A program made the translations under genes and the position numbers. Positions 3,986-57,605 of a stretch of DNA of 64,000 nucleotides are shown here, one piece after another. The notes under the pieces are model-generated. The model searched no databases. It saw only the letters and a program-made list of their open reading frames with translations, and was not told the DNA's origin. The DNA is from Crossaster papposus. Lineage: Eukaryota > Echinodermata > Asteroidea > Velatida > Solasteridae. The DNA lies in the NCBI GenBank assembly GCA_037893245.1, contig JBAIAA010000812.1:744001-808000 (forward strand). Reading direction: 5' to 3'. Each line of letters opens with the position of its first letter. Positions within the stretch are counted from its first letter, which is position 1.

Positions 3986-4394
3986 AGCACCTGTCTGATG
4001 CTTAATAAATATGTACTTTGTTTGTTTGTGTATAATACAGACTGTCAAAAAGTTAACCAGTTCGCACAGGATTATTCTGACGTTGACAGGACCCGGCATA
4101 TGGGTGAAACCCTGATTTTTCCAGCCTCGCTCACTGCGTTCTGGTCGCGGACAGATATTTACAGCCTTCCTTGTATTGTGTTTATCCGTGAATCGTTTTG
4201 AGAGCCAGCACTGAGCCAATATGCCCGTTCCCTCCAGCTCTGGTTTATTTCGGTGGCGCCTACACAGACAAAAGTGTCTGAGGACTTGATTTTAATACTT
4301 GCACAGTATCCAAACAAAATTAAAAAACTTGGTCCTATGGTCAATTTGACCTCTCTTGGAAAAATACTCATATTGTGCGGTGCTTATGAAGCGC

Positions 4395-20288: not shown

Positions 20289-20899
20289 CAGCCGATTTCA
20301 CGAAACCTTATGCAATTGCGTAAGCCCCCTTGCGCCACAATTTATTGTGTAAGCTGCGCTACTTTTGTTTGCTGCGCAACATTTCGCTTACGACAGTTTC
20401 ACGAAAGTTTGACAGTGCGTAAGTCCACGGCTTGCGCAACAAATTATGGCGTAGCTTGCGCAGTCAATTTAGGTGGCGTAAGATATGGCGTAGCGACTGA
20501 AAAATGACCTATTTTACCAGCAAATCGTAATTGACGTGGAGCCCGTCATTGCTCAACTTATTAAGCTTGATAAAAGACACTCACAGTTTCATGATTGAAG
20601 TAAAAGAATCACTATTTTACCTGTGACAGAATTGTTAATGTTGCCACACGATTTCGCGGAAAGTCGGACAAAACTATTTTCAAAATGGTGGGCGAAGGTG
20701 ATACAACGACGATTTCGTGAAAGAACACAATAATACGCAAACAGTCGCCGTAAACGGTGTTTAAAACGTTGCGCAGCTACGCCAAGTTTCGTGAAATGCT
20801 CCGTAAGGAAATGGCGCAGCTACGCAACATTTTTGTTGCGTAAGCCTTACGCCACTTTTGAAAATGGCGCAAGCTACGCACTTTTCGTGAAATCGGCTG
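20289..20899. mobile_element. MITE with CAGCCGATTTCACGAAA ends (611 bp), left-arm copy
   Basis: The ends are CAGCCGATTTCACGAAA and its inverse, with further inverted homology of GCGTAAG/GCTACGC words inside. It is flanked by a 3-bp duplication CTG (20,286-20,288 and 20,900-20,902). Three-base target duplications fit Harbinger- or CACTA-like elements. No ORF. The right-arm copy is interrupted by the Gypsy element. Confidence 0.8.
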
Positions 20900-21752
20900 C
20901 TGGAGAGTCAGTTGCTGAATTAGTATTTTGTCTGGGCTGGGCTGCGAATTTGGAAAGAATAACAAATTAGGCATGGGACAAGTTTATAAAATGATGCACT
21001 TCGATGAATGCAGGCATTACAGGGTATTGTTTGACATCCAAGATTGTGGTGGTTTATATTTTATTTTTCTTAACTACAATTTGCAAAGGCTGGAATGAGC
21101 CTTTTTAAATCTATAGAACAATGTATTTCTAACACCATTTTAACACTAAACACACAACTTATATAAATGCCGGTAATATTTTGTTTATTGGGAAGGGGCG
21201 TAATCATACATGCAGCTTACATTTTGTTTAACGATTCTCGGTCACATGGGATGGAAATTAAATTGAAGAACGTGTAATGCTGGGTTTTGTGGATTTTTGT
21301 TCTGTCAGGCTATTAGGTTTTTTAGTTAAAGATGAGGTGCTTTTGCAAGAAAATAACAAGGAGAAACCGGTTTATGCAAACATACTTCATAGTTTATTTA
21401 TTGATTTTGTTTGATCGATGCTAGAGTTAGCTGCAGTGAGTCAGAACTCATTCTATATTGGAAGGGGAGGGTGTTTATGGGAGTTTTTACAAGTTTTAAC
21501 ATAACTATTTCTCATAGTTTTCGTTATTTTTTTGTTTCGTTATTTCGTTGATTTGTATCTCATTCGTTCTTCGACGCTCGCAATGCAAACATCCGTACCG
21601 TACCATACCATACCATTGTACGCAGCGTGGTAATTTGGGTGTCATTCTTATGGAGCATGGTAATGCAAATCCTGTTATCGTCATTGATTGGAATTTTGCT
21701 CCTTGGCTTAGCAAGGCAGACTTAGAATAATTCCTGGCATATAGTAATTATG

Positions 21753-21958
21753 TGATGAGCTTGGATATTTTGCCAGCTCGAGTTGACTTGGTTAGTCCTG
21801 GTGTGAGCTTGGATGGGCTTTTGCCAGCTCAGGTACACTTATTGGGAGCTTGGGTGGGCTTTTGCCAGCTCAGGTGGATTTGGTGTGAGCTTGGGTGGGC
21901 TTTTGCCAGCTCAGATGGACTTGGTGTGAGCTTGGATGGAGGCTTGCCGAACTTGGTG
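21753..21958. repeat. Tandem repeat, about 45-bp unit, about 4-5 copies (left arm)
   Basis: Repeats of GAGCTTGG(A/G)TGGGCTTTTGCCAGCTCAG plus a variable spacer (TGGACTTGGTGT). The mirror copy is at 44,538-44,743. Confidence 0.85.
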
Positions 21959-24924
21959 GAATTTCTAACAGTTCGGTAAATAACTGCCTCATGTCACATC
22001 CTTGGGACCTTTTCCCGGGGCTAGCCTCTGCGTATTTTGCAGAGGTTGAATTGGGGCCGGCATACAGATTTTTCAAAAAATTCAGTATATCACTGCTACA
22101 TCCTTTTTTAACGTATTCATAGAAAAAACTGTGTGGGTTCGAAGAAGAATTTTCAAAAATGTATCGATTATTGTTGCCCTTTTTAGGGGAGGTATTTGTT
22201 AACGTCGTTTGTGTATTTGTGCACGATCTCCACGTGCAGCATTAGTACGTCAACGGCTAATTTTTAGGGGACTGTTTTTTTATTTTCAATACAATTTTTG
22301 TCATTAGATGATAAAAATGTAGGCTATGTAAATAACAACCTTTTTTTTTAAAGACAAGAGACAAAATGTTAAGATTGGATGCAAAAAACCAAAGACGATA
22401 CTGTCTATATCGTCTTCGGTATCGTATCGTGACGATATTATCGTCCAGCGCTATCCACGTCATCTCCTTGAAGTTCTTGCATACCCAGCGATATGCCATG
22501 CATGGTCCATTAAGCTTTCCTATAGCTTTTGCAAGAGGAATTCCATCCACTTCCTTCTCCAACCAGTCCCATTTGCAAGCATATTTGATGCGGCCCTAAA
22601 GTTTGTGTCGGTAAGTTTGTTTTTTTAAATCAAAAATGAAAACAAACTGTCTTTTCTGTCTTCACGAAATGACTCTCAACTATACCTATTTATGTCAAAA
22701 CGCTTCTAATTTGTCGGCCCACTTACGTTCGCTATTTTCTGAGAAGAAACCTCTGTTGGTTTTAGAAGATCCCTTCAAGATTACAAGTTCCCTTCGTGGT
22801 GCACAATTCCCAGTCATGGTGATGAAAACATGTGCGTAACGCTCAATGCAGTAACGCTGTACTGGTCCCTGCCGCGCCAAAGAAGGCATGATGTATGCGA
22901 CAATCAGTCTATGCATGTACATGTACATGCATGGCCGATTAACATCGTAACACTGTAGTTCCAGGTCGATCTAAATGCCGAATAAACATCGATGGAGAAC
23001 GAATATTTCTGCAAGTTAATTCACAAAACTTGATCTCTCAACTGTGTATGTGTTTTCTGTGTTCATGAATTATGATGAGGTTGTATCGCTTGTACTTGAA
23101 ATGATAGCGCAGCATGTTTCCCCGACATTTTCTGCCGCAACGCGAGGTTCGTCGCCTGCCACACAGTGCTTCACACACTACAAACGGACAGTGTTGGCAA
23201 GTTTCCCTTCGTGGGTAGCGTTGTGCATAGTGGTGTGCACGACCTAAATTCTCCATTATTTTAAAGAATTATCGACAGTAAATAGTTGACATTAATTAAG
23301 GCAAGTTTTTATCACTTTTTGTGGCAATTGTTTTAATGGCTTTTGTACATGTAGCGTAAATCAATGTCAACATTTGAAGCGCGAGATGTGCCGCGGCAAC
23401 TCACACCGCGAGGCTCGCAGCATGCTACTTGCTACAAACGTTTTCACCGTACTTCCTTTTGGATTGAGTTCTGCCAACTACGTATTCACTAAGGTGGTGT
23501 ACGTATCATTAGCGTGCTCAAGGCATTTTATCCTTTGTGTACAATTGACGACAGACTCATTGTTTCATCAAACCAACACTCTGCCCTTAAGAATGTCGAA
23601 ATCGTACGGAATTCCATAGTTCGCAGCGATTTGTTCTTAACCAAAAACAAAGCGTCTGGAACCCCACAATGTCCATTCAATGATTCTGGCTTTATCATAG
23701 ATTCAAACACGTGTTCTTTTTATCTGCCCGTTTCCTGTTGGTCGGCCGTGTATGCATAGACTCCATCCTGCCTTCTTTGGCACTTTTAGTGGGCGGTGCG
23801 GGGGGAACCAGTACAGCATTGCTGCATTGAGCATTATGCACGTGTTTTCATCACCGTGATACTGATAGGGAATCGCGCAACGCGTTGTCATTGCGAACAG
23901 AAAGTGATAGGGAATCTCAGAAAATAGCGAATGTAAGTAGGTAGTTGGGTAGTTGAAAAGCATTTTGTAAAGACAGAAAAGATATTTTTGTTAATTTAAA
24001 AAAAAATGTTTTAATGGTTATTATTATTATTTTTTAACTTGCCGATAAAAACTTTAGGGTAGCAGCCTTAACAAAACATGTCTTTTAAAACATGATTTTA
24101 ATTATTACTGTGTTATAATTGGGTCTAGGTAAAATTTATTAATGATAAAATGAAGAATTGATGAGGCCAAAAGAAAAATGGTGTGTTTACACTAACCCTA
24201 CCTACCTGGATTTTTGGTGGCCCAATTGCCAACCTCATTGTAGATGAATACTAGTTTCAATTATTTGTCACAAATAATCATTTTCCACACTTAAAACACA
24301 ACTAAAATGGAAAAGAAAAGACAAAATTAAAATATTTCCCTGCCTACCTACCTGTATTTTTTTCAAGCCGTTACTGTAAACACACCATTTATTTTGTTTA
24401 GCCTAAGCATACATCTGGATATGGGAGCCCAAAGAGCTGTGCTAAATGGCTAAAAACGTAACGTAATCGTGGAATTGCCCATTAGTGAAAATTGAGAGGG
24501 TTACAGCATATTAAGCGCAGGTAGTAACTTTGAGTTCATTATGATCAGAAGCAACTTACCACAGTGAAACACCGCTAGTCTTGAAGAAGAAGAAGAGAAA
24601 CGATCCCTTTTCGTCTGGGTATGTGTCCTGCCACTGTTCCCCTTTTAGTATGAGTTATCAGTTCTCCCCGATATTCCAGCAAGAAATTGGCTTTTTTGAA
24701 AATTCTTCTGAGCAAATGTTCCTCGATCGACCTAAGAAAATCAAAACCAGCAAAAAGCATACATACCTGAGACAGTTTTTCATTTTCATCTATGAACACA
24801 AATCTTTATAAAGGTCAGTATCACTATACAAGTGATCCCCTGAGTCGCGAGTGTCGCCTTTACCCCGCGGTCGATCCCTATGTTTAGTTTTCTTTAAAAA
24901 GTCCAATTTTGTGCATTTTTCAAT

Positions 24925-25220
24925 GACCTCAAATGACCCCTTGATTACCTTTGACCTCCTATTTCAAAGGAGTTGTGATGAACCCCACCCAAGGATCACT
25001 CCATCCAAGTTACATTAAAATCCATCAAATTCTGTATACATGTACAAAGAAACATTTGAAGTACCGGTATGTTTGAGCAATGACATCTAATGACCCCTAC
25101 ATGACCTTTGACCTCTGTAACCCAATGAGGAAATGTGTCTTCCGACCCAAGGGTCACTGCATCCAAGTTTTATCAAAATCTGTGAAAGCATGTACATGTA
25201 GAAGTTATACAATATTATTT
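24925..25220. repeat. Degenerate tandem repeat containing TGACCTTTGACC words (left arm)
   Basis: Two diverged units share CAATGACCTCAAATGACCCC / CAATGACATCTAATGACCCC, ACCTTTGACCTC, CAAG(G)GTCACTGCATCCAAG and AAAATC. A perfect direct repeat of AGGTCA with 1-bp spacing lies on the minus strand at 25,102-25,114. Mirror copy at about 41,340-41,640. Confidence 0.7.
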
Positions 25221-25861
25221 TTAAAAACTCATCACGCACGCTTACCGCCGCACCTCAAACTCGGGGCTACAATGTAGGCGTTGTGCATAGCACTGTTCAC
25301 GATCTAAATTCTCCATTCTTGTTAAAAGAATGATTGACTGTAAACATTTTTGACATTAATTGAGGCAAGTTTTTATCACTTTTTGAGGCAATATTTGATG
25401 GCTTTCGTAGCGTAAATGGAAACATTTAAAGCACGAGATGTGCCGCAGCAACCTTTTGAAAGGCATGTAATCGGAAGCAGAACTAAGGGGTCGTCCAAAG
25501 TTGTCACTATATCTGCAATGCAACCTTAACTCCCTAGGGTGTGTGGAAAATCATATTGAAATTTTAGGCTGTTCGCTTTACGCGATCCTTGCCCGGCATT
25601 GTTGATTTTTCTGATTTTCTTCCTAACAAATTCAATGCCGTTCATTTAGCAGAGGGATAACTTCATCAAAAACCTGTTGACAATATTGGAGCACCAGCCG
25701 CATGCAGGGTGATCGCAGCCTCGACTCCATATGAGCGTGTGCGCGTTATCGCGAAGGCATGGTGGGAAAACATAGCGCAGCAAGATCATAGCCATGGTAA
25801 CGAGGTTGGGGTGATTGTAACGACTATCGTTTGCCTCGTACACGTATCACACGTACACCCC

Positions 25862-28800
25862 TACATGTACTGTATGTACATTTCTGACAAAAAAAATCTG
25901 AATTATTGAGTAATTTACCCGAAAACTTGGGTTTCCTTTTTTCAGGGACACAAAAAGAATATAATTTGTAAATAAAATTAATTTTGTAAACTTTATAAAT
26001 AAAAATAAGAACCAATCATGTAAATTGGAACAGGAAGCAGGAACAGTTGTGATTGGTCAGTGTTGTGGGTGTGAGGTTGAATCTTTGATTCTGATTGGTC
26101 AATATTAGCAGCATAACATTAATCATGAAACTGGTCTGTAAAATGGATTTCCATGAACTTGTTTAATTCAAATACGCTTTAAATTTGGATTTCTTTGAAA
26201 TGAATATATTTTAAATTACCAGTTTAACAATGTGTGAAAAGATTATCAGTTAATTCCTAAAATACAATAAGGAATCAAAAAAATAAAAAATACTCGGCTC
26301 CACAGGATTGTGCACAAATTTTCAGGTTTGTTTGTCTTCCAATCTCATGATGCTTTGAGAATGTCGATAAGGTTTCCATCAAGTACAACTTGAACGATCA
26401 TTTTGTACAATTCATGAGATATCCCTTGCGTGGCGGAAACCAGACTGGTACCGTATGGATTGTGTAGGGGAAACCTTTGTAACTCATTTGCCGGTGTCAT
26501 ATAAAAATTAAAAAATTAGACAATGATATTATTTGGGTCGTTTTATAGCTATTTTGGTGCTGAAAATGATGGTTTTGCTAGGACATGTTGAACAAATGTT
26601 GGACGTGTGACGCACGCAGAAGTTTGGTATCACAGTTTGAACTTGGACCCTACAATTCGTCTTTTAGCATTTGGTCATTGTCTGGCGAATGTAGGGTTAG
26701 GTTAATCGGACTACCTCCACTCATACAAAAAATTCATCTGTAAATCTTGCTCTTTTTGGACCAGTTTGAATAGCCAAATATAAATGTTGCTCATAATAAA
26801 CATGACTAAGATCCTTGTCTACAAAGCAGTATTCCAAGAGTGAAGGCTATGGTTGCCAATCATGGGGGGAAAACAAGAGATTTTACCATGTAAACATAAC
26901 AGCAGTGTTATTTACATAATTAAACATGGATCTCGAGGGGCTTTGTAGTTCAGAGCAATGATTCTTTCTCCAAACAGTTCCACCAATCGCTCTTGTATGA
27001 TGATGCAGCGATGGGGCCCACCACAACAACCACAAATAAATAGTGGTGCACTTCCCTAAATATACCCTTTCATAACATTGGTCACCGTGAATGTAATGCC
27101 ATGAGCAAGGTGTCATTTTAAAGAGAATATCTCCCTATTTCTGTTACTTTTACATGTAGCAATAATATCTCGTTTCGGTTTTTTTATCCATCCTGTACAG
27201 CTCTAAGACATGAACTCTGTATCAGAAAGTTCCATCAGAAGGTTCCATCATTCCAAGCTCTGTTCTATTCTTGGAGTGAAACGGGAGGATCGATGTTACA
27301 GACAACAAGGGTGGATCTTCCAAGCATAGAGACCATGATTCGTCAGCTCAAGAGGATGACATACTCACGACTACATATACCCAGCACGATATGGGGCCGA
27401 GGGGTACCCCCCCCCCCCTTATCCCTATACCCTAACCCACTTTACACTATTGTTACCTAACACACGTACCCCCCCCCCCCCCCCCCCCCCCCCCACTCCT
27501 TAAAACCTAAAAAAAAATCCTGAGATTCCGGGAGCACAATGGCCAACACAATAGAGGGGCAGGGGGGGGGGGGGGGGTCTGTCGGCCCCGTATCATGCTG
27601 CATGTGGGACTACAGGCTGTACTCATAGTCAATTTACATCAAAATAGGGCCTTACCTAGAAGTAATTGCAATATAATTTAGTTTAACACTGTCACGTGGG
27701 GGAAGTATCACTCATAATCTAAATCCCCCAATGAGTGGAAAAGTGATTTGTATTCACTTTTTCGCTACTATTTTTTACCATACAACAACAGCCGGTACAG
27801 AGGGAGTGTTGTTTATCTTTTGCGTCTGGTAACCCTCAGAAAAATCGCTCACATCATGCAGGCGATACCTCGAAACTAGACTTATCACAAGCAGATGCCT
27901 TGTCTACCAATTTATATAATGGGAATCTACCTTGTCCCACAATAATATTATTTTGGTATTTTCTAGAAAAAGGTCAAGAATTTTGAATAATTTTGGCTGT
28001 CAAAATTATTAATCGGTTAAAATAAATCGACCCTCATGTTCAATAAACTATTTGTTTTAGAATGTTTTGGCATAAATAAGGCAAATTCAAAAACAGGGTC
28101 CGGCAATGATGTGCAGGAAGTGACCCATTTGAAGTTAAATTTAGGTGTCCATGCACAAAAGCTTGAGCCCAATTTGGGGATATATCCCAAATCCAAAATT
28201 CTTGTGAGTTTCCTGAGAAATTAACGTTCTTGGCATAACTTTATAATTGTAAAAAGTAGACGCCAAAAGCCTTAATGAAGAAAAAACGTGCAGGGTTGAA
28301 ATCTTTCACTGAAAGTTTCAGTGAATATAAATTGTCCACTGTTTTTAATATCCAAGGATCAAACTTAAATTTTCTACATTCTTTTTGCAAAATAATGAAT
28401 GTTTTTCATCTATGGACTTAAGCAGGTGAAAGTTAAAGTCATCCACTCTGTCAGAAGCGACTAGGACTGTGAATAAAGTTATGTCTTGAAAACTACAATG
28501 TTTCCGTCAATTGTAAAGTTGTAAACAAGTTTAAAATATTTTGTATTACTCTTAATATATAACGTAAATGTACTCTATATAGTTTATGTAAAAGATCAAC
28601 GAAAAAATATAACAAAGGAGAGAAGTATTTTCAAACATTGAAGATATTTTTATTATTTAGAGCTTTTTCCCAAACCCCAACTTCGACTGCATTGTGCCTT
28701 TTTTCGTTCAGTATGGCAATGAAGATGGAGCCTTATACGGACCGAAGTCGGGATCTTAGAAATGGCCCAAGTTTCCGACGCACTGTCGTATGTATTCGCA

Positions 28801-39675: not shown

Positions 39676-39754
39676 AGTCATGAAGTAACACAGACATTTG
39701 TAAGTCACATCCTATAACTACATAAATATTGAATATTTTAAAGTGAACAAAGCT

Positions 39755-39830
39755 GGCAGGAGCTGGATTCGAACCTGCAACCTCCAGGTTACCGTACCAG
39801 CGCTATACCAACTGAGCTATCTTGCCGCAA
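39755..39830 (-). repeat. tRNA-like sequence (SINE head or tRNA relic)
   Basis: On the minus strand GGCAAGATAGCTCAGTTGGTATAGC provides a good A box and GCAGGTTCGAATCC a good B box, and the acceptor stem nearly closes. The anticodon stem does not pair convincingly and the D stem has a mismatch, so I call a tRNA-derived repeat and not a functional tRNA. Confidence 0.6.
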
Positions 39831-45762: not shown

Positions 45763-46469
45763 TGTAACCGAGTGAATATAGGCCCTTTTATTTTATATAG
45801 TTCCTTTTGATTTTCTATATTCCTTTTGTAGTTAGCCACTTTTGTGTATTTTACATCTCATTTACGATGATACTAACCTTTAAGATTTTCCTGTTTATTT
45901 TATACTAACATTTAAGGTTCCCCTTAATTCAAAGCTTGCTGCCAGAGCCATCAATCTTACCACAGTTGGGGCGCTATTAAATCTCAGGGTCTCACCCAAA
46001 TCCCGTGTGTTACTCCAATTCGTGCGGTTTGGACTCTTAACATCGGCTTTGATCGATCATGGTCTGATGACGTGGATGGGTACTGGCCTTACTAGGGTTA
46101 TTGCCCTCACGAAAAAGTTGAGCGGTTGTTCGAGACAGGGCTGGGCACTTTGTGTTGGGACCTGCTCCGTGCTAGTCGTGCCAGTTGGCAGCTGCAATCT
46201 TCTGCATTATAAAGCTTGCGCTGGACTTGTTCAGGTTCTCCTCTAGCCAACTTAGCAGGGTGAAACAACAGCTGGATTGTGCCAAGATTAACTGGGCCTA
46301 GCCATGCAGTTGGCCTTGGTGCCACTGGGTACGGTCTGGAAGAACCATTAGCCTCATATTACTAGGTTGGATGGGGGTTTTTGTTTTGACCGTGTCCTAT
46401 TAAAGTACATGCCACTGCATCCTGGTTTCTGTGTGCCTTGATCCTTGATGGTTAAAAATATGGCTCACA
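45763..46469 (+). repeat. 5' LTR
   Basis: 707 bp, TGTAACC...CTCACA. Promoter and polyadenylation signals must lie here by analogy; a TATAAA-like CATTATAAAGC at about 46,205 is a weak candidate only. Confidence 0.95.
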
Positions 46470-46472
46470 ATT

Positions 46473-46490
46473 TGGCGTCGTAGACAGGAT
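46473..46490 (+). promoter_or_regulatory. Putative primer-binding site
   Basis: Three bases after the LTR comes TGGCGTCGTAGACAGGA. The TGG start complements the CCA end of a tRNA, as expected for minus-strand priming. I cannot name the tRNA with confidence. Confidence 0.6.
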
Positions 46491-46850
46491 GCGGTGTTAG
46501 GACACGGTTGGTGCTGTTGCTGCACACACGGCGGAATAAACCCCCACCAGCCGGAAGGAGTACATGACGAGAAGTCGGATGAGTCGATGCTGGGCGAGGA
46601 GTGAAGTTTACATGTACACCTGACGGACGCAGGAGACTAGGAGGGCATAGCTGGTTTCATCGGAGGGCGTTGACCGAAGGCGTGGACGCGTAATGGACTG
46701 TCGAGACGACGGTGATGTGATAGGCATTTAATTATATGTTTCTTTGCTCCTGTATGAAGCTAGTACAATCGTATGTGCCCTTTGCTTTGTTCACAATTTT
46801 TAAGGGATTTTTGTAATTCTGTATTGTTAATGTAATTTTAGTTTGAAATT

Positions 46851-47849
46851 ATGGCCTCGGAGGAACAGGTCCAGCAGCTGCGCAAAGAGTTGGCCGAAAA
46901 GGTCAAACTTCTTGAAACGGAGCAAGCGAAATCACTAGGGGGAAAAGCTGAGCGCGCAATTCTTGAAGCACGCTTAGAGGAAGCACGCTCGGGTAAGGCC
47001 TCCCATCCGCGTTATCTAAGCAGGGAACGCAAAGTTGAACAATTTGCGGCCACGGCTGGAGATATTGACGTTGCAATATGGGTGGAGGATATGCAAGAGG
47101 CTATCCATGCGCGTAAATATCCTACTGCTGAGGCCGCGGATTTTGTGTGGGACAACCTGCAGGGTGATGCCAAACTAGAAATACGGTACCAGGGGGGAGA
47201 AGTACGCAGAGACCCTGAGAGAATTTTTGAGTGTTTAGTTCAAGCTTTTGGTCAGCGCGAATCTGCGACCGAACTACGCGCAGAATTCTATCGCCGGTGC
47301 CAAGCACAAACAGAGAGCTTGCAAACGTTTTCACTGGGCCTCATGCAATTATACAATAGAGTACAACGGCGGAACAGTCACGCCGTTGAAGACCGTGAAA
47401 GCTCACTCAAGGGGCAGTTTACAACTGGGGTACGAGATAAGGGGCTGCGCAGGGAGCTTAGGCGTCTGGAAATAGAGGACCCAGACCTACCATTTGTAGA
47501 GTTCCGCGACCGCGCCATCCGTTGGCTTGGTGAAGATCCACCACCGCGAACCACAAATTTAGTGCGCGAGATAGAAGCACAGCCAGCCGCAGCAACCGTC
47601 GAGAAAATCGAAACAAACGGGTTGCAGACTCTCTGTGAGCGCGTTTCTAAATTGGAGCAGGGGCGCGCAGAACAAAGTGAAAAACTTGATAAGATTCTTG
47701 GTGTACTGCAACAGAACACAGAGCGCCGCCCTGGTCAAAGTGGGCAGATTAGATGCTATGGCTGCAAGCAGCTAGGCCATATCCGTAGAAATTGTCCCCA
47801 AAATGCCACCCACAACGCCCCATCAAACTCCCAACCCCCACAGCATTGA
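46851..47849 (+). CDS. gag: Gag polyprotein
   Basis: 332 residues. Begins with a coiled-coil-like, charged N-terminus (residues about 1-45, heptad-like L/E/K), then a capsid-like helical region (about 60-230: W-V-E-D-M..A, F-V-W-D-N-L-Q-G-D-A, and F-G-Q-R-E-S typical of Gypsy Gag). It ends with one CCHC zinc knuckle (C-Y-G-C-K-Q-L-G-H-I-R-R-N-C, residues about 303-316) for RNA packaging. The start codon is the first ATG after the primer site in a frame open to 47,849. It overlaps the next ORF by 58 bp in the -1 frame, so protease and Pol are probably made by -1 frameshifting. Complete. Confidence 0.9.
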   Translation: MASEEQVQQLRKELAEKVKLLETEQAKSLGGKAERAILEARLEEARSGKASHPRYLSRERKVEQFAATAGDIDVAIWVEDMQEAIHARKYPTAEAADFVWDNLQGDAKLEIRYQGGEVRRDPERIFECLVQAFGQRESATELRAEFYRRCQAQTESLQTFSLGLMQLYNRVQRRNSHAVEDRESSLKGQFTTGVRDKGLRRELRRLEIEDPDLPFVEFRDRAIRWLGEDPPPRTTNLVREIEAQPAAATVEKIETNGLQTLCERVSKLEQGRAEQSEKLDKILGVLQQNTERRPGQSGQIRCYGCKQLGHIRRNCPQNATHNAPSNSQPPQH

Positions 47850-48373
47850 GTCAAGCCGTGGGTGGGGAAGTATGTGACTCAACAGATACTAGGGCAGAAG
47901 CCGTTTTAGAGAAAGCCGCGGGGAAGTGTCCACAGGCTGTGGTAGAGCTGGAAGGGGTTAAGACCCATTGTTTGCTGGATTCAGGAGCAGAAGTTTCTAC
48001 GTTAACTGAGGAATTCTTCAGGCAACACTTTCAGTGCGACACAACAGGTTTGGTGGACACTACTCCGTGGTTGAAGATAACTGCTGCCAATGGTCAAGGC
48101 ATACCATATCTGGGGTATGTGGAGTTGGACCTGCGTGTGGGAGGGCGCTGCTTCCAGGGGTTAGGGTTCTTGGTCGTCAAGGATTCTGCCGACCCTGGCA
48201 TGCGTCAGAGAAAACAGCAGGTTCCGGGGATCATTGGTAGCAATATTCTTCGCAGGTTGTCTGGGGAGTTGCAAGAGTTGGATGGTGATGCTTCAGTGGC
48301 CGAGTTGGCTAAAGTTTTACAGTTGTACTTGGCACCACTCAGACGAGTAGAAGCATCCTGTGGTAATGGGTGA
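47792..48373 (+). CDS. Aspartic protease region (pro) of the Gypsy element
   Basis: Frame -1 relative to gag. Residues about 60-75 hold the aspartic protease active site L-L-D-S-G-A-E-V-S, and about 150 the I-I-G-S-N-I-L flap-end motif that closes the fold. Translation probably enters by frameshift within 47,792-47,849, so the ATG shown need not be used. It ends at TGA 48,371 while the homologous reading continues in another frame (see pol), so one small indel near 48,360 is likely, or a second recoding site. Confidence 0.85.
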   Translation: MSPKCHPQRPIKLPTPTALSQAVGGEVCDSTDTRAEAVLEKAAGKCPQAVVELEGVKTHCLLDSGAEVSTLTEEFFRQHFQCDTTGLVDTTPWLKITAANGQGIPYLGYVELDLRVGGRCFQGLGFLVVKDSADPGMRQRKQQVPGIIGSNILRRLSGELQELDGDASVAELAKVLQLYLAPLRRVEASCGNG

Positions 48374-49448
48374 GGACAGAGGCATTATTGGTTTGGTCCG
48401 GACATCTACTGATGGGCCAGTTCGGATTCCGTCGAGATCAATGGTGGTACTTGCAGGCACTGGGAGGCATCATGGTGAGGCTTACAATGCTCTGGTTGAA
48501 CAAGTGGATTCATCCCAAGGGTCTATCCCACGGGATGTGTTCATCATTCCGTCCCTCTCAAGGGTGGTGGATGGCTGCGTGCCTATGCGTGTAGTAAACT
48601 TGGGAAGGGATGATGTCTTGCTCCAGCCACGGGCTTGTGTAGGAGTGATGTACGAAGCCATTGTTGAGAGAGAGGAGTGTCCTGGGTTGACCCAAGTTAG
48701 TGACAGGGAAGTACTAATAGGCCAAGTTGAGACACATGTAGAGGATCAGGCTAAGGTTGACAAGCTCCTTGAGATGCTTGATCTAGGGGACAGCACTGAC
48801 CTCACGGAGGAGCAATCCTTTCAGTTGAGGAGGATGCTGGAGAAGCACATTCAGGCGTTTAGTTTGAATGAACATGACTTCGGTTACTGTGACCGAATCA
48901 AGCACACCATTCCGCTGACAGACACTACACCTGTACGACTACCACATCGGCACATCCCACCTCAGCTCCAGCCAGAAGTGAGGGAACACCTCAAGAAGTG
49001 GGCAGGTCAGGGCATAATTAGACCTAGCACTAGTCCCTATGCCTCTGCATTGGTGCTAGTGAAGAAGAAAGATGGTAGCCTCAGGTTATGCGTCGATTAT
49101 CGTCAACTAAATGCGAAGATCCGACAAGACGCGTATCCACTTCCTAGAATCGAGGAGGCCTTGGAGTCACTACATGGGTCGCGCTATTTCAGCTCGCTCG
49201 ACCTTGCGTCTGGTTACTTGCAATGTGCAATGGAGGAGGGCGACATCCATAAGACGGCGTTCCGAGTTGGCAGCGGGGGACTGTACGAGTTCACGCGGAT
49301 GCCCTTTGGGCTATGCAATGCCCCTGCTAGCTTTCAACGCCTAATGGAGGCCTGTCTCCAGGACCAAAATTATCAGACGTTGCTGCTGTACCTGGACGAT
49401 GTGCTTGTTATTTCCAAAGACATCGATGAGATGCTTAGTCCAGGCTAG
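48360..49448 (+). pseudogene. pol: Pol, first part: reverse transcriptase up to the catalytic YLDD, truncated by nested element
   Basis: From about 48,740 the frame shows the RT entry (H-T-I-P-L-T-D), I-I-R-P-S-T-S-P-Y-A-S, L-R-L-C-V-D-Y-R-Q-L-N, S-S-L-D-L-A-S-G-Y (first catalytic Asp), M-P-F-G-L-C-N-A-P-A-S-F-Q-R-L-M and L-Y-L-D-D-V (the other two Asp). The Pol frame then hits the inserted element at 49,436 and stops at 49,448. It resumes without loss of frame at 54,133 once the insert and one GCT are set aside. The start at 48,360 is GTG only because the preceding frame is shifted. Confidence 0.9.
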
Positions 49449-49765
49449 AGAGCAAGGAACCTTGTTTTTTTATATATACAATGTTTTTTGATGGTTTCTT
49501 ATCAATTCGAGGGTGCTGATTCCAAATCCGATGAGTGCCAGACGCGAAACCTTGAGCATTTTTCGTAAAACGCGAAAATTCAAAATGGCCGCCAAAATGG
49601 CCGCCAAATCATGAAAACGCTTATTATATGGCCATTTAAAAGGTTATTTGATGTTTTCTTGTCAAATCGAGGGTGCTGAATCCGAATCCGATGAGTGCCA
49701 GACGCGAAACCTTGAGCATTTCTCGTAAAACGCGAAAAATTCAAAATGGCCGCCAAAATATATCA
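49436..49765 (+). repeat. Left terminal inverted repeat with two subterminal units
   Basis: After the 13-bp perfect terminus, the unit (GAGGGTGCTGA...CGAAACCTTGAGCATT...GGCCGCC) occurs at about 49,508-49,670 and about 49,670-49,765. The serine-rich ORF starts in the last few bases. Confidence 0.85.
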
Positions 49766-50421
49766 GATATCCAACATGTCAAAACTCAGCAGAAGCAAAT
49801 CCAGCAAGAGCAAGAGCAAGTCCAGCCAGCCACCACCGTCTCCGTCTCCATCCAGTTCGTCCTCAAGTATACCCTGCGGGCAACCTTCACCACTTGGCAG
49901 CGATGATGAATCTCTTCTTCTATCCCTAGAATTAGACGATCAACCCGGCCCATCCACTTCTAGCAACACACCACAGGTCTCCGGCTCCCACCGTCTACCA
50001 GAGACAAAATTCAAAGAGGTAAAAGCTTTAGCAGAAACGATCAACATTTTGACCTCTGCTAAACCTCAATCGACAGATACAATCTTTGTCCATACATGTG
50101 AAGACCGCCACACCACCTCCATACCTGGAAACCAAGGTAAAGCCACCAAGACCACACCGATCGGTGCAACTCCAGAAATCGTTCACAGAACGTTGGAGTA
50201 AATTGCAGAGCCGTACATCGCTGCTTTTTACAAAAGTCGCACTTGAAGAGTACGAACACCAACTCAACCTGGCGGAGTCGAGATACACCGACACAAGACG
50301 AGCTGCTCAGGAAAAGCTCGCTGAATACCAAGGCCAAGACCACCAAACAGCACAACAGTTGCTGAGTTTCTTCACAAGGCCCCGACGATCAAGAGGCATC
50401 AAGAGGAAACATCCGTACTAA
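49746..50421 (+). pseudogene. Upstream ORF of the RT element: serine/lysine-rich protein, frame-shifted, function unknown
   Basis: First frame (49,746-50,201): an S/K-rich stretch and S/P-rich low complexity, then about 80 residues without a known domain. The second frame (50,086-50,421) continues with a likely coiled-coil stretch (Y-E-H-Q-L-N-L-A-E-S-R...A-A-Q-E-K-L-A-E-Y) and a basic end (R-G-I-K-R-K). The two overlap by 116 bp, which suggests one protein broken by an indel. Its place before an RT suggests an ORF1-like nucleic-acid-binding protein, by inference only. Confidence 0.55.
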
Positions 50422-50541
50422 GAATCTCTTCAACCACAATAAACCAAACGGTCTTTTTCAAGACCACCACAACTTCTCAAAAGAGATAAACCGTTTTTCT
50501 TGTTTACATTGTGCCCCATTTAATTTCCACACAGGAAAACA

Positions 50542-52107
50542 ATGGCAAGAAGAAACCTAAATAAAGAAAGAAAGAGATCCCTTAGCCAACAAAAATCAAA
50601 CCTTTTCTCTGGCAAATGCAAAAGCAAAAAAGCCAAATCCAATCAACAACAACAACAATTATTAGCAGAACAATGCGAATCATTTATAACCAACCTATCC
50701 AAAGCAACATTATCGCATACCGAGAAAATTGCTTTAGGAAAAGGCCTCAACTTCGTTCCCACTCCTGCTAAACCACACCGAACATCACTCGTGAGTGAAA
50801 TAAAGACATTCAATCGAAAACTTCGAGTTGCTTTCCTAATGCGTAACAAACGCTCTAAAAAACATCCTTTTAAACCACCATCAAACTGGTTTCCAATATC
50901 CACACCTAGCGCAACGCTAGAAGAATACCTGGAAGCCACTAAATTCGAACTGGCCCACATAAGGCTAAGAAAACAAGAAAGGAACTTGACAAAACAAGAA
51001 CAATCCGCCATACGCAACCTCAAAAACAACCCCGATATCGTAGTCAAACCATATGACAAAGGTAGAGGCATATGTATAATGAACCACACAGACTATCTAC
51101 AAGTGGGTTACCGCCATCTTGAGTCCCATCATTACACGCAGCTGGACCAGGATATTACCCATGAAACCACAACTATGGTTCACAACACACTGACACAAAT
51201 GAGAAACAACGGTCACATCGACAACAATATTCTGAAATACCTCGACCCACTTCAACAGAAGTGCCAATGTCCAACAATGTATTTTCTCCCAAAAATACAC
51301 AAAACTCCACCACAAGGAGAACCATTTGTTGGACGACCAATCATAAGCGGCTGCACAAGTCCTACAGCCAAAATTTCAGAATACATAGACTATTTTCTCC
51401 TTCCAATTGTAACCGCGCAATCCACATATGTCCGCGACACAGCAGACATTTTTCGCAGACTAGAAGGGAAAACATTCTCACAAAAAGCTCTAATCGCTAG
51501 CATAGACGTTGTTTCCATGTACACAAATGTCCGACAAGCGGAAGCAATCGATTGTGTTTGCAATGCCCTAGAAAATACCAATCACAACTATACCATCACA
51601 AAGCCACCATCAACATATATCCAAAAACTTCTGGAACTCATCCTCGGTCGCAACTGCTTCCAATTCGGAAACAAGTTCTTTCTCCAGAAAATTGGTTGTG
51701 CAATGGGCTCCACATCGAGCCCTGAAATATGTGATATCACCCTACACGAATTCGAGAAGAAAATAACCCATAAAGCGGATAATATCCTAACAATCCCATG
51801 GTGGCGCTATAGAGACGACATACTGGTCATCTACAATGGTACTCTGGACGAATTCAAAAATCTCGTCACAGAAATGAACAAGATGCACCCAACGTTAAAG
51901 TTCACATACGAAGCCTCTGAATCATCTATCAACTACCTTGACTTAACCATCTTCAAAGGAGATCGTTTTCGAAAAACAGGAATCCTAGACACAAAAGTCT
52001 ATATAAAACCAACGGAAACCTTCCAATATCTCCACAAAACATCATCCCACCCACCCCACGTTTTCAAAGCGTTCATTTACGGAGAATTAAACACTCCGAT
52101 ACGCTAG
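50542..52107 (+). CDS. Penelope-like reverse transcriptase
   Basis: 521 residues. Motifs: K-P-Y-D-K-G-R-G (about 169-176), P-K-I-H-K (250-254), G-R-P-I-I-S-G-C-T-S-P (264-274), A-S-I-D-V-V-S-M-Y-T-N (319-329, first catalytic Asp), G-C-A-M-G-S-T-S-S-P (385-394), Y-R-D-D-I-L-V-I-Y (423-431, catalytic DD) and Y-L-D-L-T (465-469). The D-K-G, P-K-I-H-K, G-R-P-I-I-S and A-M-G-S motifs with this spacing are those of Penelope-like elements, not of LTR or non-LTR enzymes. The N-terminus is basic with a Q run. A single extra A near 52,092 shifts the frame; a thumb-like continuation (Y-A-R-N-T-N-N-K-D-D...R-G-Y) is readable in the next frame. Hence catalytic residues are intact but the C-terminus is lost. 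The first ATG after a stop was taken as start. Confidence 0.85.
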   Translation: MARRNLNKERKRSLSQQKSNLFSGKCKSKKAKSNQQQQQLLAEQCESFITNLSKATLSHTEKIALGKGLNFVPTPAKPHRTSLVSEIKTFNRKLRVAFLMRNKRSKKHPFKPPSNWFPISTPSATLEEYLEATKFELAHIRLRKQERNLTKQEQSAIRNLKNNPDIVVKPYDKGRGICIMNHTDYLQVGYRHLESHHYTQLDQDITHETTTMVHNTLTQMRNNGHIDNNILKYLDPLQQKCQCPTMYFLPKIHKTPPQGEPFVGRPIISGCTSPTAKISEYIDYFLLPIVTAQSTYVRDTADIFRRLEGKTFSQKALIASIDVVSMYTNVRQAEAIDCVCNALENTNHNYTITKPPSTYIQKLLELILGRNCFQFGNKFFLQKIGCAMGSTSSPEICDITLHEFEKKITHKADNILTIPWWRYRDDILVIYNGTLDEFKNLVTEMNKMHPTLKFTYEASESSINYLDLTIFKGDRFRKTGILDTKVYIKPTETFQYLHKTSSHPPHVFKAFIYGELNTPIR

Positions 52108-52870
52108 AAACACCAACAACAAGGATGATTACAAAAACAAAGTCAAATCTTTCTCAGAGAAACTAGCCACCAGAGGTTACAACCTCACGGAAATTGAAAA
52201 GCAACAACCAAAGTATCGCATTTCGATAGAACCAGATTGATACACGGAACCGTAGTGAAAGACAAATCCAAACAAATTCCACTTGTCTTCTACTCTTCTC
52301 CACTACGTACAACCCAGCCATCAACCACCGTGACTTACATCAAGCAGTTAACAAACATTGGAACTTGATCCAAGGAAATGAAATACTCTCGGAAATATTT
52401 CCTAAACCTCCGTTCATTGCCTTCCGAAAAGCCAAAAACATCCGGGAAAAACTAATACGAGCCAAATTACCACAAATGCTCAAACCATTCCCACCCAACT
52501 CCGGCTTTGAAGAACTTATTGAACATGATCAAACCCTCAACATACTGCTCTCTTTACTAGAGGAACAACACGGAACCAACTAAAAGTACATGGCTTTGTT
52601 CCAAACATTTCCAATTCACGATCACTGATTGGACCACACCAAACCCACACACCTTGCGAGTTAGAACCGATTCCTTACCATGGAATCACCTACCTGCAAC
52701 TGACGAGTGTCATAACAGTAAAGACACGAAAGCACTGCTATTGCTAACACAAGAGAATTTGCGATTACAATTCTCCCCTCGCACCCCAAATAAAATCACA
52801 TTTGATTTATCTTATACCAACTACGGTCATCTAGTCTTTCGTGTTCGCCCACTCCATTTATTTCGGACAT
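52098..52870 (+). pseudogene. C-terminal remnants of the Penelope-like RT protein
   Basis: Readable pieces are the thumb-like segment at about 52,098-52,235, then Y-N-P-A-I-N...H-W-N-L-I-Q-G-N, and F-R-K-A-K-N-I-R-E-K-L-I-R-A-K-L at 52,320-52,480, which corresponds to the conserved F-R-R-(A/S)-K-N-L-R-D-x-L-V-x-A-K-L of Penelope proteins. In endonuclease-bearing Penelopes a GIY-YIG domain follows; none is seen in any frame to 52,870. The region is broken by several frameshifts. Confidence 0.65.
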
Positions 52871-52969
52871 AACGGGCGTAGACTGATTCGTGCTTAATTA
52901 ATCCATACAAGTCACAGAGAGAGAAATATAATGTCACTGGATGGGAAAGCGCCATCATTCTCTTAAACC

Positions 52970-53515
52970 ACGTCCACAATCCGTTTTTCAGTTTCCGAAA
53001 AAGAGCGCTAGAGGAAAAACGGGTTAGGGTTATATATAGAAAAGGTAGAAGGGACAGCTGAGAGGCCCATAATCCAAATTTAAGGGGAAATTTGTTTTGG
53101 GTAAGCGAGAAAAATGAGTATTTAGTCAAAGTTTGTTAACTACACGAAGACAAAGGAATGTCCACAGTACGTATGTAAGGTAAAGCTGTGTGGGTGAGCG
53201 TGAGTTAGTCTTGCATACGCACTGTGGACCTCCGAACAATATAGGTCCATACGATGCGGGAAGAGGTTACGGTTTGTGGACTTGCACACGTCCACAATCC
53301 GTTTTTCAGTTTCCGAAAAAGAGGCCTAGAGGAAAAACGGGTTAGGGTTATATATAGAAAAGATAGAAGGGACAGCTGAGAGGCCCATAATCCTAATTTG
53401 AGGGTAAATTTGTTTTGGGGAAGCGAGAAAAATGAGTATTTAGTCAAAGTTTGTTAACTACACGAATACAAAGGAATGTCCACAGTACGTATGTAAGGTA
53501 AAGCTGGGTGTGTGT
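52970..53515. repeat. Two direct repeats of about 220 bp, 315 bp apart
   Basis: CACGTCCACAATCCGTTTTT, CGAAAAAGAG, AAACGGGTTAGGGTTATATA, and GGGACAGCTGAGAGGCCCAT through to GTCCACAGTACGTATGTAAG occur at about 52,970-53,190 and 53,284-53,515 with few changes. Both contain GGGTTAGGGTTA. Confidence 0.85.
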
Positions 53516-53624
53516 GAGTGTTTGTGTAATTGTTTGCGGGTGATAATTGCACATTTAGAAAAAAACCTCTGAGGTCTGAAATCGTGCTCATTAATGGTTT
53601 TATTAAATGTGTAATTAAATTTAT

Positions 53625-54129
53625 TTGGCGGCCATATTGGCGGCCATTTTGAATTTTCGCGTTTTACGAAAAATGCTCAAGGTTTCGCGTCTGGCACTCA
53701 TCGGATTCGGATTCAGCACCCTTGATTTGACAAGAAAATATCAAATAACTTTTTAAATGGCCATATAATAAGCGTTTTCATGATTCGGCGGCCATTTTGG
53801 CGGCCATTTTGAATTTTTTCACGTTTTACGAAAAATGCTCAAGGTTTCGCGTCTGGCACTCCTCGGATTCGTATTCAGCACCCTCAATTTGACAAGAAAA
53901 CATCAAATAACCTTTTTAATAGCCATATAATAAGCGTTTTCATGATTTGGCGCCCATTTTGGTGGCCATTTTGAATTTTCGCGTTTTACGAAATATGCTC
54001 AAGGTTTCGCGTCTGGCACTCATCGGATTTGGATTCAGCACCCTCGAATTGACAAGAATCACTCAAAAAACATTGTATATATAAAAAAACATGGTTCAGT
54101 CCCTTTCCTATGGGGCCTAGCCTGGACTA
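53625..54129 (-). repeat. Right terminal inverted repeat with three subterminal units
   Basis: The same terminus and about 165-bp units in inverse orientation, three copies here against two on the left. It carries an additional GGCCCCATAGGAAAGGGACT segment just inside the terminus that the left end lacks or has altered. Confidence 0.85.
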
Positions 54130-54132
54130 GCT

Positions 54133-56911
54133 AGCACGACTAGATATGGTCCTGGGCCGATTCTCAAGCTTTGGGCTGAAGATCAAGCCAAGCAAGTGTC
54201 ACTGGTTTCAGAAGCGCATCTCGTTCCTAGGTCACGTGGTGTCAGAGAACGGTGTAGGCACTGATCCTGAGAAAGTTCGGGCCATAAAGGAGTGGAAGAC
54301 ACCTCAAAATGAGCACGAGCTTAGATCCTTTATGGGTCTGGCTAGCTATTATAGACGGTTTGTTCCAGGGTTTGCGAAAATAGCTGCACCACTTCATGCA
54401 TTGATGGGAAAGGCATCCCCCAAACATCGGAGGGGTGCTAAGCCCAAGTCGGTCCCTAATTTGCCATTTGTCCAATGCTGGGACTCTGAATGCCAAGCTG
54501 CCTTCGTACACCTGAAGGAGTGCCTGATGACTGCCCCCATCTTGGGTTACCCAGACTTTACCAAGCCCTTCATTGTGGAGACCGATGCTAGTTTCAAGGG
54601 GCTTGGTGCTGTTCTTTCACAAGACCAAGATGATGGGCGTGTGGTCATCAGTTATGCCAGCAGAAGCCTCAAACCGACCGAGAGGAATGATGCAAATTAC
54701 AGCTCCTTCAAACTGGAACTGCTCGCCTTAAAATGGGATGTTACAGAGAAGTTTCGAGACCACCTGCTTGGTTCGCGGTTTGTTGTCTTCACAGACAATA
54801 ACCCGTTGAGCTATTTGAGGACAGCAAAACTTGGGGCAACGGAGTCACGCTGGGCTGCACAACTGGCCCAGTTCGACTTTGAAATTAAGTTCAGGTCCGG
54901 TCGGACAAATGGCAATGCAGATGCACTAAGTAGAAAGACCGAACATGGAGACGTTGTGGTAGGGGTAGAAGCCGTCCAGGCAGTAGTGCAGGAATGCACT
55001 CTGTCTACAGCTGTCCTTGGTGAGCTGAGACAACTTATCAACAGTTGTGGTGGTTCCGGTGCTGGAAACTCAGAGCCGGAATCTGCATCCATCTCATCAG
55101 TGACGGCAACCAGCACCCTACCAACAATACCAAGACGAGACATGAGGCAGGCCCAGATTAATGACAAAGACCTTGCACTTGTTTGGCGTTACTGGCAAAC
55201 AGGCCATCCTCCCACTAGAAGGCAGTTGCTCCACGAGCCAAGGGCGGTTCGGAAACTGTTAAAGTTCTGGACGCGCCTGGAAGAAAAGGATGGAGTGTTA
55301 CATCGAGTGGTGAAGGAAAGGGGACAAAGGGTGGAACAATTGCTACTGCCCAAAATCTTCCGTCACAAGGTCCTCCAGGAATTGCATGACAATGCGGGCC
55401 ACCAAGGGATGGAACGGACCATGGCATTGGTTAGAGCCCGATGCTACTGGCCCAAGATGGCCATGGATGTAGAATCCTGGTGTCGATCTTGTGAACGGTG
55501 CACCCTTGCTAAGGCCCCACGGCCAAAAGTTAAACCCTCAATGGGGAACTTATTGGCCGCCCGACCACTCGATGTTCTAGCTGTGGACTTTACTGTCTTA
55601 GAACGGGCTAGTGATGGACGGGAGAATGTCTTGGTGATGACCGATGTCTTCACCAAGTTTACCAAGGCTGTCCCTACTCGAGACCAAACAGCGAAAACGG
55701 TTGCGCGTGTTTTGGTAAGAGAGTGGTTTGCACACTTTGGGCCTCCCGCCCGAATACACAGCGACCAGGGGCGAAACTTCGAGAGTGCCCTGGTCAAGGA
55801 GTTGTGTAGGTTATACGGGGTCGATAAGTCGAGGACCACCAGCTACAATCCAGAGGGCAATGGCCAATGTGAGCGCTTCAACCGCACAATGCATGATCGT
55901 CTGCGTACGCTTCCACCAGATCAAAAGCGCCGTTGGCCAGAGCTTCTCCCGGAGTTCGTGTATGCATACAATGCAACCGTGCACTCCTCAACTGGATATC
56001 CCCCATTTTATTTGATGTTTGGCAGGGACCCAAAGCTGCCCGTTGACCATTTTCTCGGTAACACTGAAGGCCATGATGATGGACCCAGCGTTGATGAGTG
56101 GGTAGCAGGCCATCAGACACGGTTACAACACGCCTGGGGTTTAGCTGGTGCACGCGCAGAAGCAGAGGCACTTGCCCGCAATCGTCGTTGCAATGCTAAG
56201 GCTGGGAGGACGGATCTTCCCATGGGCAGGAGGGTGTTTCTACGCAACCGGGGTGTACAAGGCCGAAACAAGATACAAGATATGTGGCTGCCTACTCCAT
56301 ATAAAGTAGTTGGCAGACCGGACCCCAATGGGAATGTCTATGTAGTCCAGCCAGCCGATGGGTTTGGACCCAAGCGGGTAGAGCACCGGTCCAATATTTT
56401 GGACGGGCGTCAGCTTGAGGTTCCACGTGTGGGTCATGAAAACATGCAGGATAAACCTGTTGACACGACCCAGACCCAACAATCCAGTAAGACAAGTGAT
56501 GGACCAGAGGTTCATGAAGAACACAACGATGATTCCTCGGAAGGAGAGACGGAATATATCACGATTCAACCTTGTGAAGAACCAGTCCCAGAAACTAACT
56601 CTGAAAACGGTACCATGGAGAGCGAGGAGGACAGGGATGAGCCTATCTTGCGTCGGTCGACAAGAGCAACGGCAAATCACCACCCAAACCCCCATAACCT
56701 CCCGCGGTCTACACTGATTGACCAGAATGTGGTAGAGGACCGTAGGGCAGATGTGGGTTACTCTTCCCCAAACTTCGAGAGTTTGAGTAGAGCCATAGCA
56801 GGGCTTAGGAGTAGTCTGGGAAAGGTTCTTCAAGACACTTGGCTACATTCTCAAGTGAATGTAGTTGCCGCGGACGGCAATGTTCAACTTGGGAGGAATG
56901 TAACCGAGTGA
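54133..56911 (+). CDS. pol: Pol, second part: RT connection, RNase H, integrase of the Gypsy element
   Basis: Numbered from the ATG at 54,146 (921 residues): RT thumb F-L-G-H-V-V (about 28-33) and F-M-G-L-A-S-Y-Y-R-R-F-V; RNase H with E-T-D-A-S (Asp 147), E-L-L-A-L-K-W (Glu 191), F-T-D-N-N-P-L (Asp 217) and A-D-A-L-S-R (259-264). The integrase zinc finger runs from H414/H419 to C446/C449 (W-C-R-S-C), and the D,D-35-E core is A-V-D-F (481), H-S-D-Q-G (540) and E-G-N-G-Q-C-E-R-F-N-R (576). A glutamate/aspartate-rich C-terminal tail follows. It reads through the polypurine tract and ends 13 bp inside the 3' LTR. All catalytic residues visible are intact. Confidence 0.92.
56891..56898 (+). promoter_or_regulatory. 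Polypurine tract
   Basis: GGGAGGAA directly abuts the TGTAACC start of the 3' LTR. This is the expected primer for plus-strand synthesis, and here it lies within the pol coding sequence. Confidence 0.8.
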
Positions 56912-57605
56912 ATATAGGCCCTTTTATTTTATATAGTTCCTTTTGATTTTCTATATTCCTTTTGTAGTTAGCCACTTTTGTGTATTTTACATCTCATTTA
57001 CGATGATACTAACCTTTAAGATTTTCCTGTTTATTTTATACTAACATTTAAGGTTCCCCTTAATTCAAAGCTTGCTGCCAGAGCCATCAATCTTACCACA
57101 GTTGGGGCGCTATTAAATCTCAGGGTCTCACCCAAATCTTGTGTGTTACTCCAATTCGTGCGGTTTGGACTCTTAACATCGGCTTTGATCGATCATGGTC
57201 TGATGACGTGGATGGGTACTGGCCTTACTAGGGTTATTGCCCTCACGAAAAAGTTGAGCGGTTGTTCGAGACAGGGCTGGGCACTTTGTGTTGGGACCTG
57301 CTCCGTGCTAGTCGTGCCAGTTGGCAGCTGCAATCTTCTGCATTATAAAGCTTGCGCTGGACTTGTTCAGGTTCTCCTCTAGCCAACTTAGCAGGGTGAA
57401 ACAACAGCTGGATTGTGCCAAGATTAACTGGGCCTAGCCATGCAGTTGGCCTTGGTGCCACTGGGTACGGTCTGGAAGAACCATTAGCCTCATATTACTA
57501 GGTTGGATGGGGGTTTTTGTTTTGACCGTGTCCTATTAAAGTACATGCCACTGCATCCTGGTTTCTGTGTGCCTTGATCCTTGATGGTTAAAAATATGGC
57601 TCACA
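56899..57605 (+). repeat. 3' LTR
   Basis: 707 bp, the same length as the 5' LTR and nearly identical. Followed by the GTAT target duplication. Confidence 0.95.

Follow-up and report, generated by a model that had tools for sequence, protein, structure and literature searches.

Academ-type DNA transposons have a transposase with a DDE core, CXC and an XPG nuclease, and they duplicate 3 to 4 bp of target DNA. DNA transposons that carry genes are also known, and Pack-MULEs (PMC6431247) and TET/JBP-bearing transposons (PMC12730594) are examples. Here, we describe a 4,694-bp unit at positions 49436 to 54129 of a 64,000-nucleotide stretch (the window) on contig C812 of the 1.02-Gb genome of Crossaster papposus, in which most of a Penelope-like element with its reverse transcriptase (RT) lies between the ends of a DNA transposon. 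Like Pack-MULEs and TET/JBP-bearing transposons, the unit has cargo inside a DNA transposon, but the cargo here differs in being a nearly whole retroelement, whose second open reading frame (ORF2) is shortened in all 16 young copies. It departs from Academ-type transposons in that the RT-bearing copies have no transposase and that the partner form on contig C117 lacks the nuclease segment. With Penelope-like elements without a GIY-YIG endonuclease, the cargo lineage shares RT homology, tandem copies spaced by about 4.04 and 4.26 kb and an inverted inter-unit module; it differs from them by an upstream ORF1, by a stem-loop of histone type that separates ORF1 from ORF2 and by its place as DNA-transposon cargo. 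Among titles and the first parts of abstracts, no prior description of Penelope elements as cargo of DNA transposons was found. Our data make it very probable that the unit is a non-autonomous Academ-like DNA transposon that captured a Penelope element and moved as DNA, with the RT as a passenger.

The termini of the unit are 13-bp terminal inverted repeats (TIRs) that match each other exactly, TAGTCCAGGCTAG at 49436 to 49448 on the plus strand and its counterpart at 54117 to 54129 on the minus strand. Inward of them lie inverted, multi-copy subterminal repeats, each about 160 bp long (49457 to 49759, plus strand, inverted relative to the right end; 53623 to 54110, minus strand), and the arms of 290 bp are 93% identical. 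The unit interrupts the pol frame of a gypsy-type long terminal repeat (LTR) retrotransposon (45763 to 57198, plus strand; LTRs at 45763 to 46062 and 56899 to 57198, 99% identical) and is flanked by GCT on either side (49433 to 49435 and 54130 to 54132). The pre-insertion site, with the flanks joined and a single GCT, recurs 18 times elsewhere in the genome, in 17 cases exactly and in 1 with a single mismatch, compared to none in the reversed control. A profile built from 30 transposase homologs found no match at an E value of ≤1 in the six frames of the unit with filters off, and Pfam at an E value of ≤5 found RVT_1 alone in the 521-amino-acid ORF of the window. Hence, what the initial annotation had read from the letters, namely an RT within exact 13-bp inverted ends, multi-copy inverted subterminal repeats, a GCT duplication in the coding sequence of another element and neither a transposase nor a GIY-YIG domain in sight, was borne out.

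The RT-bearing units form a recent family. The left end has at least 60 matches in the genome, which make up at least 21 elements or pieces, and both ends were read for 20 elements (19 sites, as the flanks of C117 and C630 are the same) and also for L052. The left-end pattern occurs at 25 places and the right-end pattern, with up to three mismatches, at 26, each with no place in the control. The latter comprise the 16 RT-bearing copies, a short derivative on C7, single places on C117, C630, C145, C853, C896, C381 and C433, and two on C552. The Penelope parts of the 16 young RT-bearing copies are 99.1 to 100% identical (median pair, 99.5%), and the right tails are as low as 90% in one pair. Exact 3-bp duplications flank 15 of the 16 (14 by an exact script test, the window copy by reading and by its empty sites) as well as L043 and L047 (script test) and L052 (read), and the triplet varies from site to site (TAA, ATA, TGT, CTA, AGT, TAG, TCA, AAG, TAT, ACT, and GCT). 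Two copies on C87, L037 and L038, lie 33.5 kb apart; because they are identical over the aligned positions and have the same lesions but different 3-bp duplications, the pair suggests a local hop. At C381 and C433 (L058 and L059), the match is limited to the last 29 to 34 bp, with no partner end within 4.6 kb; the C552 ends have three mismatches, and four queries were unmatched in the 5-kb stretch read there. A separate cluster on C304 (1792012 to 1792784) consists of three left family ends, one after another at intervals of about 375 bp.

The same ends occur without the RT. At C117/C630, they enclose a multi-exon transposase gene and no RT, with 98.5% identity to the RT-bearing ends over the first 324 bp and 94 to 96% in the right tail. 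The two 234-bp direct repeats with a spacing of 318 bp at 52969 to 53520 of the window are likewise DNA-transposon sequence that is also found in the transposase-bearing form. The C117-type gene matches positions 21 to 829 of the transposase profile and the CXC tail. A homolog has an XPG/FEN fold and CXC; no DDE fold appeared among the matches listed, where the nuclease domain fills the list. In Pfam, the transposase matched DUF6589 with an E value of 4.1e-6 and 26.2 bits, below the cut-off of 27, and nothing above the cut-off was found for the transposase relative L057 or the N-terminal exon. The 3-bp duplication of the family agrees with the 3 to 4 bp of Academ. PMC9587614 lists Academ as a DDD/E superfamily. 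Judged by these sequence features, the transposon family of the unit appears to be Academ-like and the C117/C630 gene is its candidate partner transposase. A further place, C896:314675-354923, has left and right family ends separated by about 40 kb, each with pieces of the transposase nearby, and may be one transposase-type copy filled with nested insertions.

The Penelope part (49762 to 52966, plus strand) is truncated at its 5′ end, has its natural 3′ end, and aligns without a break to the free copies L051, L055, and L056. Its ORF1 (49776 to 50421, plus strand) runs from an ATG (MSKLS...) to a stop, and a 5-nucleotide (nt) deletion relative to free L051 breaks the frame. ORF2 (50542 to 52583, plus strand), which encodes the RT, is open for 521 amino acids to 52107 and then frameshifted; the stop of the free frame corresponds to about position 52583. 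The RT assignment comes from RVT_1 (E = 3.4e-9), and the best named protein match is from Patiria (56%); no solved structure was related in sequence at an E value of ≤1. Free copies stand in tandem arrays (L051 and L055; array unit, about 4,042 bp), with one copy within the 5.6 kb read at L056, and head-to-tail Penelope copies on C297, C48, C653, C1227, and C630 have a near-constant spacing of about 4,255 or 4,043 bp. L051 has ORF1 and an intact ORF2 of 674 amino acids from the ATG, and the cargo is 97.5 to 98.1% identical in ORF2 to a free copy. GIY-YIG (PF01541) is present in 6 of the 111 homologs found; at an E value of ≤5, the full-length ORF2 of L051 gave RVT_1 alone and its ORF1 no Pfam match. 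This search among the tandem arrays covered L051 (C630), and on its outcome, the cargo Penelope is predicted to be an endonuclease-deficient form at most. Rfam found no hammerhead ribozyme at an E value of ≤1 in L051, L055, L056, L047, or L052.

The junctions of the Penelope part tell how it relates to the transposon. The TIR-borne part is collinear with the free unit from position 4373 (14 nt before the start of the window ORF1) through ORF1 and ORF2 to 3518. Since free L056 ends at 3525, the Penelope part stops on the right at its natural 3′ end, give or take a few bases; on the left, 5′ truncation leaves it about 850 nt short of the full 4,042-bp unit. The sequence beyond both junctions is DNA-transposon sequence present in C117, and therefore, the Penelope part entered transposon DNA that is also found without it. 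The initial annotation had named secondary insertion of the RT into a TIR element as an observation that would count against a Penelope lineage with an unusual integration route, and such junctions are what we found. It had also considered that the inverted ends are the pseudo-LTRs of an ordinary Penelope. Indeed, inverted pseudo-LTRs are known in Penelope elements (PMC3846280), and the free array L051 contains an inverted inter-unit module (approximately L051 3526 to 4372). However, this module has no match in the unit, the same ends enclose a transposase gene at C117/C630, and the duplications are 3 bp wherever they can be read, compared to 8 to 10 bp or none in the accessible part of PMC3846280. 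The transposase gene and the absent module exclude the pseudo-LTR interpretation, and we give it next to no weight.

How the capture took place is a separate matter. In our model, a Penelope element with a truncated 5′ end and an intact 3′ end would have landed in the ancestor of the unit where the transposase gene had been lost by internal deletion, or in the same event as that loss; the occasion may have been gap repair or a break. In a variant, which seems to us only a little short of an even chance, abortive gap repair of the DNA transposon would have captured Penelope cDNA at a double-strand break, with no need of an earlier, deleted element as the landing site. In its favor, the Penelope part occupies the transposase interior between C117-shared sequences, the left junction allows a microhomology of 1 to 2 nt, and no duplication is seen around the Penelope part (both by eye, without a formal test). 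Against it, no deletion form preceding the insertion was found. The 1.3-kb copy on C7 was considered as such a form and rejected; it retains a remnant of the Penelope ORF1 and is a derivative.

After capture, the composite would have moved as DNA with 3-bp target duplications, by cut-and-paste as the presumed exact route, and a related transposase of the C117/C630 type, if active, would probably move it in trans by means of the 13-bp ends and the subterminal repeats. Such a model does not need a working RT, and the lesions in ORF2, scored in the 16 RT-bearing copies against ORF2 of free L051, are consistent with it. No lesion is common to all 16, which fall into four groups without a common lesion: a stop at codon 547 and the in-frame loss of 69 bp unite 11, a 7-bp deletion unites L039 and L040, two frameshift insertions unite the window copy and L036, and L032 has its own. 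Therefore, their common ancestor seems to have had an undamaged ORF2. Today, ORF2 is shortened in every copy (8 to 523 amino acids from the ATG compared to 674), and in 12 of the 16, the break falls before the RT core is complete. Seven copies at seven sites (L033, L034, L035, L041, L042, L048, and L049) have the same insertions at nt 783 and 1074, which shift the reading frame of the core, and a 612-bp deletion in the core is common to L037 and L038; hence, the unit spread after the RT core had been broken.

Selection on the RT gives a similar picture, although the pairs are not independent and the ratios of nonsynonymous to synonymous polymorphism (pN/pS) are rough measures. Among the RT-bearing copies, pN/pS is 0.84 (274 synonymous and 828 nonsynonymous differences in 120 pairs), compared to 0.29 between RT-bearing and free copies (887 and 922 in 48 pairs). 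Fixed codon differences between TIR-borne and free copies are 16 synonymous and 12 nonsynonymous, and the variants within the TIR-borne set are 15 and 32. These values point to relaxed selection on the RT cargo. Because the same ends occur with and without the RT, the 3-bp duplications are fixed in length, and copies with frameshifted cores were still spreading, we read the RT as a passenger whose activity appears not to be needed for spread.

Capture did not happen only once. An older subfamily, represented by C145 (L050) and C853 (L052), has ends 78 to 88% like the young ones, and L052 is flanked by a TTA duplication. The Penelope part of these two is 88 to 90% identical to another free family (L066 on C463, of which about 950 nt around the end of ORF1 were available) and 70 to 81% identical to the young cargo or L051, the compared stretches differing by pair. 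This part, too, stops close to the natural 3′ end, in surroundings different from those in the young unit. L050 and L052 do not have the same left junction, a difference that we ascribe to later deletions. Since the Penelope part belongs to another free family and has other surroundings, the transposon family captured Penelope elements at least twice, independently and from different families.

Several observations weigh against the passenger model. No excision event or footprint was seen, and cut-and-paste is deduced from ends and duplications; the sixteenth RT-bearing copy, L048, has a damaged left end and an unreadable duplication, as has L050. The partner gene lacks the nuclease segment of its relatives (profile positions 830 to 1412) and is found at one site (C117 and C630 share flanks), with a 79 to 90% relative on C896. 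Furthermore, in L031, L039, L044, and the window copy, the RT core is open with the C-terminal part lost, so that residual RT activity in these four, or RT supplied in trans by free copies, is compatible with the lesions taken alone; ends and duplications argue against both. The pN/pS of the free copies (2.5, from 2 synonymous and 18 nonsynonymous differences in three pairs) comes from too few differences and on its own is no evidence of constraint. In a rival explanation, a Penelope lineage would have taken over the DNA-transposon ends as its own termini and would copy and insert the whole unit by means of its RT. The RT-bearing form is indeed commoner than the transposase form (16 young copies compared to one site, perhaps two with C896), two Penelope families occur within such ends, and the core is open in 4 of the 16 copies. 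However, the seven frameshifted copies and the two with the core deletion reached new sites, pN/pS among the RT copies is high, and full-length outer ends with 3-bp duplications are the same in 15 of 16, while the 13-bp ends were not found in the three free Penelope stretches read. We therefore consider such a takeover very unlikely. Of the two possibilities raised by the initial annotation, an RT as cargo of a DNA transposon is upheld by shared ends, duplications, and the spread of broken cores, and an unusual route of Penelope integration is not; since the cargo interpretation holds, no new route is needed. The family is a clear case in which a class II element spread a class I element as its cargo; it happened at least twice, and the copies, taken one by one, are evidence that no working RT is needed. 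It cautions against reading a new route of retrotransposition from inverted ends and a short fixed duplication around an RT gene.

The captured Penelope lineage has a second unusual feature. Replication-dependent histone mRNAs end in a 3′ stem-loop bound by SLBP (PMC2781718), and a match to the histone 3′ untranslated region stem-loop RF00032 lies between ORF1 and ORF2 (50445 to 50490, plus strand; 35.5 bits with a cut-off of 34, E = 1.3e-6 in 64 kb). It has a stem (50450 to 50455 with 50460 to 50465), a UUUC loop and a purine-rich downstream element (50479 to 50490). Rfam also finds RF00032 in L051 (twice), L052, L055, and L056, and a stem-loop with a U7-type downstream element occurs in the window, these four, L061 to L069, and L080. 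Upstream of 20 further RT copies, the stem-loop is present in 10, that is, in all 10 with 64 to 84% protein identity and in none of the 10 with 52 to 54%; two of these relatives exceed the cut-off and eight score 31.1 to 32.4 bits (E ≤ 1.7e-5). The ORF1 stop lies upstream of the stem; of 12 sequences, 10 have 25 to 29 nt between the two, and the other 2 have 14 nt.

As in the host histone genes, the Penelope signal consists of a 6-bp stem, a UUUC loop, ACCACA, 13 nt, and an element resembling AAGAGAGAAA; the difference is that it lies between two retroelement ORFs, where its use is predicted from sequence. In the host histone array copies L081, L082, and L085, stem and UUUC are followed by ACCACATATTTAC and then by AAGAGAGAAA, and in the corresponding places, free L051 has ACCACAACTTCTC and then AAAAGAGAGAAA. 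Eight host stem-loops were read, and by eye, they include the gene ends of H2A type (L081), H2B type (L084), and H4 type (L087). An alignment of the Penelope stems with 14 rows, 9 of them distinct (L056, the other TIR-borne copies, and L050, whose stem pairs at 5 of 6 positions, were left out), has 54 of 54 cells paired and both sides changed in two of the six pairs. Of 500 shuffles, only 1 reached the observed number of paired cells, and the same was true of the cells changed on both sides and of the covariation score; the number of pairs changed on both sides was reached by 127 and the number of pair types by all 500. With the partner slid by one to three columns, at most 57% is paired. The compensatory changes in the two variable pairs support, but do not prove, a conserved stem.

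In the genome, a 35-place pattern of the Penelope stem-loop, counted irrespective of a Penelope element around it, occurs at 408 places with up to three mismatches (control, 0). A genome-wide search with RF00032, in which 75 of 162,625 candidates were scored, listed mostly tandem histone arrays; the Penelope copies read here were not among them, and the search gives no count for such copies. In 14 control genomes, RF00032 gave one match, below the cut-off. No DNA of another species around the same Penelope was found in genome contigs or viral contigs, and the stem-loop results pertain to this one genome. Titles and the first parts of abstracts gave no prior description of a histone stem-loop in a retroelement, with most subscription papers outside the search.

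ORF1 has one homolog at an E value of ≤0.01 among 1,004 candidates (P0232, 54% in the alignment), whose start, MSKLS, places the start of ORF1 and whose C terminus retains TAQQL..FFTRP..G.KRKH. The conserved ORF1 tail, (T/S)AQ(Q/K)LLSFFTRP...KRK, resembles a PCNA-interacting box, with A in place of the first Q (noncanonical). This looks like a Penelope lineage with a putative histone 3′-end signal just after ORF1, which the host histone pre-mRNA machinery may use. More tentatively, and with the balance somewhat against it, one can imagine that the ORF1 message is ended by the host SLBP/U7 machinery and thereby tied to S phase and, since ORF1 ends in a PCNA-box-like tail, that this tail may steer the endonuclease-free retroelement to replication forks, whose free 3′ ends could serve it as primers; recurrent trapping and spread by the Academ-like DNA transposon would follow. 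If the stem-loop works, the lineage would be a retroelement that uses histone mRNA 3′-end formation, and primer finding by an endonuclease-free Penelope could be tested by way of S-phase coupling.

Other features of the window deserve mention. Positions 13473 to 17996 have inverted repeats of about 260 bp that enclose ORFs at 14596 to 16014 and 16345 to 17418, and the second of these is similar to the XPG portion of the relatives of the transposase (blastp, E = 9.5e-16); the whole is another DNA transposon of the same broad kind. On a larger scale, approximately 12833 to 25864 and 40708 to 61011 form a very long inverted repeat with blocks of 97 to 100% identity, arms interrupted by insertions and a spacer of about 15 kb, for which a palindromic duplication, a large element, or an assembly effect are candidates. 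Finally, positions 39754 to 39826 on the minus strand have an Rfam tRNA match of 41 bits.

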